DNA of 64,000 nt from Desulfobulbaceae bacterium (GCA_024637145.1 JAGXFQ010000041.1:62001-126000), one strand, 5' to 3'; shown: positions 6,536 through 10,287, numbered from the stretch's first letter. Notes: generated by a model not told the origin, from the sequence alone. A program made the numbers and translations.

Positions 6536-6601
6536 TTTCACCACAGAGACACAAAGACACAAAGATTTTTTTCTCTGTGTCTTTGTGTCTCTGTGGTGAA
6601 A
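6536..6601. repeat. Long near-perfect inverted repeat
   Basis: Arms of 28 bp built on ttcaccacagagacacaaag and its continuation pair with the complement across a seven-T loop, with a single mismatch. It lies between the MOSC gene and the 3' end of the ycaO gene. This acacaaag-type hairpin resembles small dispersed stem-loops seen in many environmental genomes; it could also end ycaO transcription. Confidence 0.85.
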
Positions 6602-6639: not shown

Positions 6640-8391
6640 TTAAGCAGTCTCTGCCTGTATTTCGGCGAGCTGGCTGGCGGCAAAGTCAATGGTGGCGTCC
6701 AGGGAGAGGGCAAGCTCAAAGAATTTTATGGCCTCCTCGATATTGCCAATCTTACGGTAATTAACCCCCAGGTTGGCGTAGTCAATGGCTGAGGAGGGAT
6801 GGAGGTGGACAGCGCGGTGGAAGCGGGCGATGGCCTCTTCATAGCGGCCCAGCTTGAAATAGCAGACCCCGAGAATATTGTGAAAATCGGGCCTCTCATC
6901 GTCATGCTCCCGTCCTATTTCAATGATTGCAATGGCCTCCTCATAGCGGCCCAGATTCTTGAGGGTGTCCCCCAGAAAGGAGTAGATGTAGGGGATGTCT
7001 TCTGCCTCGGGGCTCAGGGTCAGGGCCCGTTCCAGGTGGGTCAGGGCCGCCTCAAGAAGGCCCAGGTCGAGCATGTTCTTGGCCAGATAAAATTCCAGAT
7101 AATAGGCATCCGGCAGAATCTCCTGCATGGCCCTGAGCTGCCGGGCGCAGGCCTCGGGGTCAGCGATCCGTTCGCTCACCAGCTTGGCGGCAAAGAGCCC
7201 GACGTTGCTGATCCGGGAGCGCTCCCGGAAATGGCAGCCCGGGATAATGGTGTAGATGGCCGGGATCTTGAGGCCGGGATGGGCCACGTCAACCACAAAG
7301 ACATCCAGGTCAAGGCGTTTTAAGGCCGTTATGCAGCTTTCCAGCTCCACCTTCATATTATCGTCAGCCAGGTCAGCCATTTCCGCAATGGTGATGGTGA
7401 GATCTGGCTCGGTGATATAGGGCACCTCAGCCATGTTCAGGGGCTTGGGCAGGCCGGAGGCGACATAGTTGGAGCCGGAGTTGAAATCGCCGGCCAGCTG
7501 GGCCACCTCGGTGAGGGCCCGGATCAGGGCCTTCTCCGGGTTGGGGGTGGTGCCTGCCGTGTAGACAATCTCACTCTTGTCCGGAAAGGTGGCCGGGTCG
7601 ATGCAGAGGGCGGCCACCGTGGGGATGCCGGTATCTAAAGTGAAATCGTTGAGATAGATCTGGATGCCGTTTCTGGTGAATTTGTCGATGAGCTCCCGGG
7701 CCACCGGGTCTTTTACCGAGGCCAGATCAATGGCAGGTGTATTCTTCTGGTCGTAGCTCACCACGGCACAGACGTGGCGTTCGACAATTTCGGCCAGGCC
7801 CTGGCTTATTGCCTCTTCATAGGTGTTGCCGGCCGAGGGGCCGTTGAATTCGTTAATGGCATAGAACCAGCTGAAGGGCATCAGGGTCTCTTCATTCTTG
7901 GTGAGATTGTTGGCCCATACCCACTGGATGGGGATGTCGCGGATCAGCTTTTCCAGGGTCTCTTCGCTGGTGGTCTCGTCATGGACCGAGGAGAGCCATC
8001 TCTTGAGGGGCAATACCGGGTAGCCGGCCGCCTTGACGCCGGCGTAGGTGTCATGGATGAAATTAGCCGGATCCTTCATAAAGGAGAAGAAGCTGAAGCG
8101 TTCAGCCAGTTCCATGCAGGCCGAGGCCCGGGACTGTTCCGGGGTAGAGCCTTTGCCCATCTGTTTTTTATTGCCGATGATCTCCAGGGCATCCTTGCCG
8201 CAGACGCTGAAGTAGACCGGGATGTCCAGGCGACCGTTGTCGATGCGCGTCACCTCTTTTAAGACATCAAGCCGCTGTTCCTTGAGGCGGGCCTTGAAAC
8301 GTTCCACCGTTTCCTGCGGCGAACACACCTTGTCCTGGTCATAGGTGTACTGTTTAAAACAATCTTGCAGAGTGATGATTTTCTTTTTCAT
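6640..8391 (-). CDS. YcaO-domain protein with C-terminal TPR repeats
   Basis: 583 residues in two parts. Residues 60-420 form a YcaO domain with the ATP-binding acidic helices: GSTPEQSRASACMELAERF (E94, E97), the NTYEEAISQGLAEIVERH block, and NPEKALIRALTEVAQ. Residues 435-583 carry about four TPR units (YSFLGDTLKNLGRYEEAI; LGVCYFKLGRYEEAI; LGVNYRKIGNIEEAI). YcaO enzymes use ATP to activate backbone amides (azoline, thioamide or amidine formation). The domain order matches E. coli YcaO, which is linked to RimO-dependent methylthiolation of ribosomal protein S12, rather than azoline enzymes, which end in PxPxP. No TfuA or cyclodehydratase partner is present. It lies 49 bp after a radical SAM gene on the same strand, so the two probably act together. 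Confidence 0.88.
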   Translation of the reverse strand: MKKKIITLQDCFKQYTYDQDKVCSPQETVERFKARLKEQRLDVLKEVTRIDNGRLDIPVYFSVCGKDALEIIGNKKQMGKGSTPEQSRASACMELAERFSFFSFMKDPANFIHDTYAGVKAAGYPVLPLKRWLSSVHDETTSEETLEKLIRDIPIQWVWANNLTKNEETLMPFSWFYAINEFNGPSAGNTYEEAISQGLAEIVERHVCAVVSYDQKNTPAIDLASVKDPVARELIDKFTRNGIQIYLNDFTLDTGIPTVAALCIDPATFPDKSEIVYTAGTTPNPEKALIRALTEVAQLAGDFNSGSNYVASGLPKPLNMAEVPYITEPDLTITIAEMADLADDNMKVELESCITALKRLDLDVFVVDVAHPGLKIPAIYTIIPGCHFRERSRISNVGLFAAKLVSERIADPEACARQLRAMQEILPDAYYLEFYLAKNMLDLGLLEAALTHLERALTLSPEAEDIPYIYSFLGDTLKNLGRYEEAIAIIEIGREHDDERPDFHNILGVCYFKLGRYEEAIARFHRAVHLHPSSAIDYANLGVNYRKIGNIEEAIKFFELALSLDATIDFAASQLAEIQAETA

Positions 8392-8440
8392 GGGGAGAAG
8401 ATCTTGTCTTGGGGGCCATGATCTTGATAATGACCCCTAC

Positions 8441-9745
8441 TTAACGTAAGGCAGGGTTGAAATAGCCGAATTTGAGGTCTGGAAAGCGTCTTTTTACCTC
8501 ATGCAGCCACTTTTGTATACCCAGGGGTTTTTCCCGGGCCGGGTGCTGGACCACCTCAAAATACCAGTCTGGATCCATGTTCAGATTGCGAAGTTGAATC
8601 AGATCAGGACGATAGAGATCAACAAGGTCGCAAAAGGCGCGGAACTCATCAGGGTCATCGGTGAAGCCGGGTAGCAGAAAATAATTGAGGGAGACGAATC
8701 TGCCGGCCTTTTTCATGACCAGAATGGATTCCAGGACGTTTTTGAAGCTGAAGCCCTCTGGCCGGTAATAGAGGGTGTGGCAGCCCTTGCGCGCCGAATT
8801 CATGCTGACTCTGATGGAATCAAGGCCGGCCGCAGCCAGCCGTGCCACTGCCTCGGGCAGGCTGGAATTGGAGTTGAGGTTGATGGTGCCGGTGGCCGTT
8901 TCTTTACGGATCAGGCGGATGGCCTCTTCGATGGTTTTGGCCTGGAGCAGGGGCTCTCCCTCACAGCCCTGGCCGAAGCTGACCACGCCGTGCGGGGCTG
9001 CGGCCAGATGGTTGAGGGCCACCTCGGCAATCTCCTGGGGTGAGGGCACAAAGTTGAGCCGGTCCTGGGTGGAGGGACAGCAGCCCGAGGCCTGCAATGA
9101 AATACAACCAAGGCAACGGGCATTGCACGACGGCGAGCAGGGTAGGGGGGCCTCATAACGGCCGAGAAAGAGATTCTTGGCCGCCGGACAGCCATAGGTC
9201 AGCGAACATTTCCCTAGATGCTGGATCAGTCGGTTGTCCTTGTATTTCTGGAGGCTTTTATTGGTCTTGGCGCGGATGGTTTCCGGGGGGATGTGGCCAA
9301 AATCCTGGCGTCTATCCGTATCGCTGCGAAAGCCGCAGACCCAGAATTGGTCGTCAAGCCAGCCCACTGCCGTATAGGCGAAAAGGGGCAGGGCCGCTGG
9401 ATTGGTATGATCTTTTTCAAAGGCCGCCGTATAGATGGCGGTGTGGGCCGGGGCCATGAAAGCGGCCACTGCCTGGATGCCCGCCCCGGGGTCTTCCGGG
9501 TTTTCCGGGAGGAGAACAGGTTCAGCCGTCTCCGGGTCAAAGCCCACCGGCAGCCGGTGGGGCAGGACAAAAATATCGCTGTTGTCCGGCAGGGGAATAA
9601 TGTCGGAGAGTTCAGGCCTGAAAAACCAGCTGCCGGCCCGGCCGGCCATGTCAAGCTCGGCCAGGTCTAAAATCTCCCCTTTGGCGTTGGCATAGAGGAG
9701 GTGGGGCATGCGGGTGGGGTGGATGGCAATGGGGGAATCAGACAT
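8441..9745 (-). CDS. Radical SAM enzyme paired with YcaO
   Basis: 434 residues. The cluster motif is C207-x3-C211-x2-C214 (CNARCLGC), which binds the [4Fe-4S] cluster that cleaves S-adenosylmethionine. It is followed by the glycine-rich FGQGCEGEPLL strand, TINLNSNSS, and a SIRVSMNSA strand typical of the partial TIM barrel. Extra cysteines (C180, C186, C203, C222-223) could hold an auxiliary cluster. The first 170 residues are an uncharacterised domain. No TRAM or UPF0004 domain is present, so it is not a RimO/MiaB methylthiotransferase. Context with the downstream YcaO protein suggests a joint peptide or protein modification; the substrate is unknown. Confidence 0.82.
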   Translation of the reverse strand: MSDSPIAIHPTRMPHLLYANAKGEILDLAELDMAGRAGSWFFRPELSDIIPLPDNSDIFVLPHRLPVGFDPETAEPVLLPENPEDPGAGIQAVAAFMAPAHTAIYTAAFEKDHTNPAALPLFAYTAVGWLDDQFWVCGFRSDTDRRQDFGHIPPETIRAKTNKSLQKYKDNRLIQHLGKCSLTYGCPAAKNLFLGRYEAPLPCSPSCNARCLGCISLQASGCCPSTQDRLNFVPSPQEIAEVALNHLAAAPHGVVSFGQGCEGEPLLQAKTIEEAIRLIRKETATGTINLNSNSSLPEAVARLAAAGLDSIRVSMNSARKGCHTLYYRPEGFSFKNVLESILVMKKAGRFVSLNYFLLPGFTDDPDEFRAFCDLVDLYRPDLIQLRNLNMDPDWYFEVVQHPAREKPLGIQKWLHEVKRRFPDLKFGYFNPALR

Positions 9746-9858: not shown

Positions 9859-10287
9859 TTATTCTTCCGGGGGCCGCAACTTGTCCATGATGGAATCAAC
9901 GGCCAGAAAGATCTCTTGATCGTCACCAAAGATATCAACAATATGGGGATGATCAATAAGATCCTCAATAATATGCTGGGTGATGTAGAGGCTGAGAAAA
10001 TTGGGGTCGGCAGCAAGCTGTCTGAGCGGGGCAATTTTGTATTGCAGGTCAAATTCATCCATGTCGCGCATCTTCTGGAACAGGGAATTGAAATGATCGC
10101 GGATGGCATCCACATTGTTGGTTTCGATAATGTGGCTGTCCAGCAGGCGTTGGACAAGTCTGGTTGCCAATTCGTCAGCATGCTTTTGGGCCAGCTTGAG
10201 CATGACCCGTCGTTCCTTTTCCCGGTTGCGATCAATGGAACGGACGGCGCGGTCACCGGAACCGTATGGGTTATGGGCGTAGGGCAT
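9859..10287 (-). CDS. Conserved-looking hypothetical protein
   Basis: I do not recognise this 142-residue protein. It begins MPYAHNPYGSGDRAVRSIDR, has a long basic-acidic helix (residues 15-60), and an acidic helical C-terminal half ending DKLRPPEE. No membrane segment, signal peptide or cysteine pair is present. The start at 10287 is chosen because AAGGAG lies 6 bases upstream; the open frame extends to 10566 but the extra part has no ribosome-binding site and overlaps the divergent UPF0462 region. It is separated from the radical SAM/YcaO pair by a long hairpin, so shared function is uncertain. Confidence 0.6.
   Translation of the reverse strand: MPYAHNPYGSGDRAVRSIDRNREKERRVMLKLAQKHADELATRLVQRLLDSHIIETNNVDAIRDHFNSLFQKMRDMDEFDLQYKIAPLRQLAADPNFLSLYITQHIIEDLIDHPHIVDIFGDDQEIFLAVDSIMDKLRPPEE

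Follow-up and report, generated by a model that had tools for sequence, protein, structure and literature searches.

The 64,000-nucleotide stretch of Desulfobulbaceae DNA analysed here (GCA_024637145.1 JAGXFQ010000041.1:62001-126000; hereafter the window) carries a gene for a YcaO protein with a TPR region beside one for a radical SAM (rSAM) enzyme, raising the question of whether the two enzymes form a pair that serves one target or are separate enzymes that happen to be encoded side by side. The earlier note, made from the sequence, proposed that the pair modifies a cellular protein backbone or a ribosomal protein; action of the YcaO enzyme on a cellular protein is favoured by the present analysis, whereas a dedicated two-enzyme pair is unsupported.

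Gene layout and linkage of the two enzymes

The features of the locus are listed below.

6542-6595, strand not applicable: inverted repeat with CACAGAGACACAAAGACACAAAG arms, downstream of the YcaO gene
6640-8391, minus strand: YcaO-TPR gene (ORF call), 583 aa, YcaO PF02624 plus TPR
8392-8440, minus strand: 49-bp intergenic gap between the rSAM and YcaO-TPR genes, from the ORF ends
8441-9745, minus strand: rSAM gene (ORF call), 434 aa, Radical_SAM PF04055
9784-9834, strand not applicable: inverted repeat with GGGCACCAAGGCCACAA arms, between the DUF507-like and rSAM genes
9859-10287, minus strand: DUF507-like gene, 142-aa helical protein, upstream of the rSAM gene

As first described, the two enzyme genes lie 49 bp apart on one strand (ORFs 9745-8441 and 8391-6640, both minus), and no terminator-like site was found in the gap between them. 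The start of the DUF507-like gene was set at MPYAHNPYG from an alignment, the initial ORF call having begun further upstream. The two inverted repeats have different arm sequences; the window contains each pair of arms once, with none expected by chance. These strong repeats resemble dispersed intergenic hairpin elements. Just downstream of the YcaO gene lies a MOSC-domain gene (6438-6001, minus strand), whose best match is to a family of MoaC/MOSC fusions, in the MOSC half, and in the flanks of relatives it neighbours the YcaO gene only within the same genus. Its position is noteworthy given the effect of the YcaO protein DVU2210 on molybdate sensitivity, described below.

The order, very probably Desulfobulbales to judge by named relatives, was represented by 194 genomes, and linkage was counted in the 119 for which both positions were listed. 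The rSAM gene was present in 183 of the 194 genomes, including 139 of the 141 good ones, nearly always in one copy, and the YcaO-TPR gene was likewise present in 183, as a single copy in nearly every one. The two genes were adjacent (start to start <2.5 kb) in 14 of the 119 genomes, non-adjacent within 15 kb in 26, further apart on one contig in 9, and on different contigs in 70. None of the sampled genomes of families f3, f11, f12, and f13 showed linkage, and in complete genomes the two genes were separated by megabases. Eight families keep them less than 15 kb apart with differing intervening genes, and this proximity could mean selection. The linked families are scattered over several branches of the rSAM tree, so that the neighbourhood may go back to the ancestor of the order, with losses or a drifting apart of the genes in several families, or may have been assembled more than once.

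Among 158 genomes of the phylum, 32 carried both genes, 34 the rSAM gene only, 23 the YcaO gene only, and 69 neither; chance alone would give 23 genomes with both (Fisher p 0.004, without correction for kinship). The complete genome G018 has the rSAM gene without a YcaO gene, and in most genomes of other orders the two genes are not adjacent. Outside the order, they are 105 bp apart in G344 (L152), where no other member of that genome's order has the pair. Genome G230 (L167:5617-11931) has an operon with the rSAM gene first, followed by genes for a 1201-aa YhdP/AsmA-like protein and a short YcaO with two TPRs, the gene ends overlapping, and the same operon is indicated by gene positions at G347:C101:2191-8388, its middle gene being deduced from spacing only. 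The two genes thus show a weak recurring tie, seen in two other lineages, yet each plainly occurs without the other. The earlier note had held that rare adjacency in other genomes would speak against its proposal, and rare adjacency is largely what the survey returned. A dedicated, obligate pair was rejected on the 14 adjacent cases among 119 genomes and the many genomes with one enzyme only.

In the flanks of relatives, no conserved short ORF of at least 70 aa was found besides the 142-aa DUF507-like protein, in agreement with the initial remark that no precursor peptide is visible. Genes for RlmKL-like, M24 peptidase, RNase Y, and TyrRS proteins also occur in the flanks and were judged to be ordinary chromosomal neighbours.

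The YcaO-TPR protein and its relatives

The YcaO domain (PF02624) spans residues 78-386 (8160-7234) and scores 256.7 bits against a gathering cut-off of 25.7, placing the protein in the YcaO superfamily; the ATP-site stretch SAGNTYEEAISQGLAEIVER occupies residues 186-205 (7836-7777), and TPR repeats follow at about residues 434-566 (7092-6694). Among curated families, the protein passes the cut-off of the general kinase-domain model only. The best specific family is TIGR03266, for McrA-glycine thioamidation, at 153.4 bits with its cut-off of 365 not reached, followed by SagD at 113 bits and the E. coli-type YcaO NF040716 at 57.6 bits (cut-off 700, not reached). The YcaO domain also gives a full-length profile match to MJ1094 (PDB 6pe3) at E 5e-32, the best full-length structural relative. 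Some genomes (G265, G297, G346, G347, and several of the order of G344) carry two YcaO-TPR paralogues, one long (about 580 aa) and one short (about 485 aa).

The methanogen McrA YcaO (TIGR03266, MJ1094) acts on an intact protein and not on a RiPP peptide, and is the closest counterpart in this respect. However, the window protein scores below the cut-off of that family and has a C-terminal TPR region, and its bacterium lacks both MCR and a TfuA gene, no match to TfuA (PF07812) being found in the whole assembly (86% complete). Membership of a YcaO-TfuA thioamidation pair was therefore rejected, and the earlier remark that no TfuA is visible extends to the assembly.

E. coli YcaO (NF040716) resembles the window protein in having a YcaO domain and a C-terminal TPR-type domain, in being acidic and encoded by a single-copy cellular gene, and in lacking TfuA, but the two are 25% identical over 248 residues, and the alignment covers window residues 79-301 only. 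The earlier claim that both share the same TPR ending thus does not hold at the sequence level, though the E. coli structure does have a TPR-fold domain (PMC13063428). The tie of E. coli YcaO to RimO, used earlier as an analogy, has been superseded by the finding that E. coli YcaO thioamidates uL16 at Met82, the RimO effect being minor and probably indirect (PMC13063428), and the host carries a separate RimO (497 bits).

DVU2210 of D. vulgaris, presumably of the same phylum, is a YcaO plus TPR protein that was found by mutation under molybdate selection (PMC7774982) and was mutated in evolved syntrophic cultures (PMC8319347). Its motif SAGNTEEESILQGSCELVER, quoted in PMC7774982, resembles the window motif, the stretch SAGNTxEExxxQGxxExVER being common to both, and DVU2210 is probably an orthologue of the window protein, as judged by architecture and the published motif and not by an alignment. 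In contrast to the window protein, DVU2210 is known by a phenotype: the gene is non-essential, its loss together with that of sat leads to molybdate resistance, and its deletion alone leaves the strain sensitive (PMC7774982).

The YcaO-TPR gene is a single-copy core gene with neither a precursor peptide nor TfuA, and its nearest curated family is that for McrA-glycine thioamidation; these features make a cellular protein, and not a RiPP peptide, the best candidate for what the enzyme modifies. The YcaO-TPR proteins of Desulfobacterota probably constitute a new family of YcaO enzymes that thioamidate proteins.

The radical SAM protein and its helical companion

The Radical_SAM domain (PF04055) covers residues 203-369 (9139-8639) at 58.2 bits against a Pfam cut-off of 29.5, and together with the CX3CX2C motif C207/C211/C214 (9127-9104) it places the protein in the rSAM superfamily. 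In an alignment of 41 diverse relatives, with identity to the window protein down to 39%, this motif is invariant, as are C180 and C186, which precede it, and C261, which lies in a GCEGEP stretch where the GGE motif sits. C222 and C223 are confined to close relatives, and the alignment contains no invariant cysteine after C261. The extra cysteines pointed out previously are thus borne out in three positions. In general, a second [4Fe-4S] cluster that keeps one site free needs three additional cysteines (PMC5352715), and C180, C186, and C261 could serve as ligands of such a putative auxiliary cluster, close to the active site.

A beta-rich N-terminal domain of about 140-170 residues (residues 1-170, about 9745-9236) is conserved and was modelled with high confidence, and no Pfam or NCBIfam family matched it, in keeping with its initial description as novel. 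The whole protein exceeded the cut-off of no curated NCBIfam family, and Pfam yielded Radical_SAM only; the 41 relatives gave the same distant matches alone, to MoaA and other rSAM families. A literature search on the family found no paper, and none of the plasmid records encodes the protein.

In its AlphaFold2 model (pLDDT 93), the closest solved fold is NifB 6y1x (VIA Z 17.3, rmsd 3.4 A, 212 residues), followed by further NifB entries (Z 16.3-16.5) and PFL activase (Z 15.3), and NifB is also the best profile match among solved structures (E 2e-6). Furthermore, the rSAM protein has an N-terminal cysteine 21 residues before CX3CX2C, much like C29 of NifB. NifB, however, uses C29, H42, and C128 as K1 ligands and a C-terminal CXXC for K2 (PMC9692996), whereas H42 and C128 align to P200 and L290 of the rSAM protein, which has no C-terminal CXXC and carries an additional 140-residue N-terminal domain and the further extra cysteines C180 and C261. 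Identity as NifB was rejected on the replaced ligands and the missing CXXC, the resemblance being one of fold only. Identity as MoaA (TIGR02666) was also rejected, on 34 bits against a cut-off of 284 and the lack of an invariant cysteine after C261. With RimO, the uS12 methylthiotransferase, the protein shares the radical SAM superfamily; as had been observed before, Pfam found neither a UPF0004 nor a TRAM domain in it, and with the host having its own RimO, a role like that of RimO or of a RimO/MiaB methylthiotransferase was rejected. The model and the alignment suggest a functional-looking enzyme of an unnamed conserved family with a NifB-like core fold and six invariant cysteines.

The steady companion of the rSAM gene in the order is the gene for the DUF507-like protein, not that for YcaO-TPR. 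Of the 57 close loci with enough room, 39 have the DUF507-like gene directly upstream of the rSAM gene, and in 19 the two genes overlap; outside the order, it takes this position in 0 of 19 loci. The 142-aa protein scores 18.6 bits with DUF507 (PF04368), below the cut-off of 24.7, and a Foldseek search with its model gave no match at E 0.001. A second-look VIA alignment placed DUF507 8t8k in the first row (Z 6.0, 94 residues), which is weak alone, and the helix order and two short strands of the model agree with the published description of DUF507. The protein is probably a divergent DUF507. DUF507 is not known to have a function; a genomic clue to one is that, at about half of the loci where it lies directly upstream, the DUF507-like gene overlaps that for the rSAM enzyme. 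A gene for a small sulfite/nitrite-reductase-like protein (about 210 aa) lies divergently beside the DUF507-like gene at L055:2540-3199 and in nine more loci of the order, and is not present in the window.

Competing explanations and significance

Considering these results, we favour, with a probability of roughly 50%, two separate housekeeping modification enzymes standing side by side in this lineage: YcaO-TPR as a thioamidase of a folded protein, and the rSAM enzyme of NifB-like fold with probably another substrate. In known YcaO chemistry, a backbone amide is activated through nucleophilic attack and ATP-dependent phosphorylation (PMC13063428, PMC5589413). Once sulfide has attacked a backbone amide in an exposed loop of some folded protein of the cell, YcaO-TPR would O-phosphorylate that amide with ATP, leaving a thioamide, and the TPR part may bind either the substrate or a second subunit. 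Free sulfide, which would be abundant under a sulfate-reducing lifestyle, may replace sulfur delivery by TfuA/ThiS; attack by free sulfide seems most likely because there is neither a neighbouring peptide nor TfuA and the cell is probably rich in sulfide. With its core motif intact and cysteines to spare, the rSAM enzyme is suggested to run a cluster-assisted radical reaction, and in the order it may work with or beside its DUF507-like partner.

That both enzymes instead modify one cellular protein, their old functional neighbourhood having been broken up in some families, is possible though rather unlikely. The proximity kept in eight families, the independent adjacency in G344, the YcaO-containing operon of G230 and G347, and the co-occurrence above expectation in the phylum are in line with it, and methanogen McrA, modified by both YcaO-TfuA and the radical SAM enzyme MamA (Mmp10), provides a precedent for enzymes of these two kinds serving one protein (PMC7058361). 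However, Mmp10 is a B12-dependent methylase, and the window pair offers no evidence for a shared target; many genomes, complete ones included, have one enzyme only, four families of the order are unlinked throughout, G344 stands alone in its order, and the constant neighbour of the rSAM gene is the DUF507-like gene. An unlikely alternative is that YcaO-TPR, like E. coli YcaO, thioamidates uL16 near Met82, with the rSAM enzyme modifying the ribosome or its RNA. Beyond the E. coli precedent, an acidic pI of YcaO has been linked with uL16 binding (PMC13063428). The window protein and its close relatives are indeed acidic (pI 4.7-5.4), the host uL16 has the RMGKGKG stretch found in E. coli, and a gene for an RlmKL-like rRNA methyltransferase flanks the rSAM gene in 8 loci outside the order. 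That stretch, however, is to our knowledge near-universal in bacteria, the pI is ordinary (20% of background proteins lie below 5.0) and reaches 8.2 in relatives, and the likeness to E. coli YcaO is partial in extent and far below the family cut-off; the uL16 motif and the YcaO pI do not discriminate between targets.

A role for YcaO-TPR as an ATP-consuming enzyme on oxyanions or in molybdenum metabolism, with the product of the adjacent MOSC gene as partner, appears highly doubtful. The authors of the DVU2210 study proposed molybdate activation from the resistance phenotype (PMC7774982), and a MOSC gene does follow the YcaO gene in the window, but the MOSC gene is a neighbour only in the same genus, deletion of DVU2210 alone does not remove molybdate sensitivity, and the YcaO reactions described to date take place on peptide backbones. 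Enzymes of the YcaO and rSAM types co-occur generally in RiPP clusters. That the two enzymes together produce a natural product of the thioamide or azole peptide kind is nevertheless extremely improbable here, and a RiPP cluster was rejected on the near-universal single-copy distribution over the order, the variable neighbourhoods, the lack of TfuA, and the lack of a conserved precursor among ORFs of at least 70 aa.

The rSAM family is an unnamed core gene family of an environmentally important order, with an unusual cysteine set. It is quite doubtful that a single conserved protein of sulfate-reducing Desulfobacterota is the target of the rSAM enzyme, its DUF507-like partner, and YcaO-TPR alike; if it were, that protein would carry a backbone thioamide together with a radical-installed modification and would parallel, in bacteria, the doubly modified methyl-coenzyme M reductase. 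Enzymatic backbone thioamides are known in only two proteins, McrA and uL16 (PMC13063428), and the YcaO-TPR proteins, a core family of Desulfobacterota, hint at a third, an idea open to test in D. vulgaris, in which a deletion strain with a phenotype exists.
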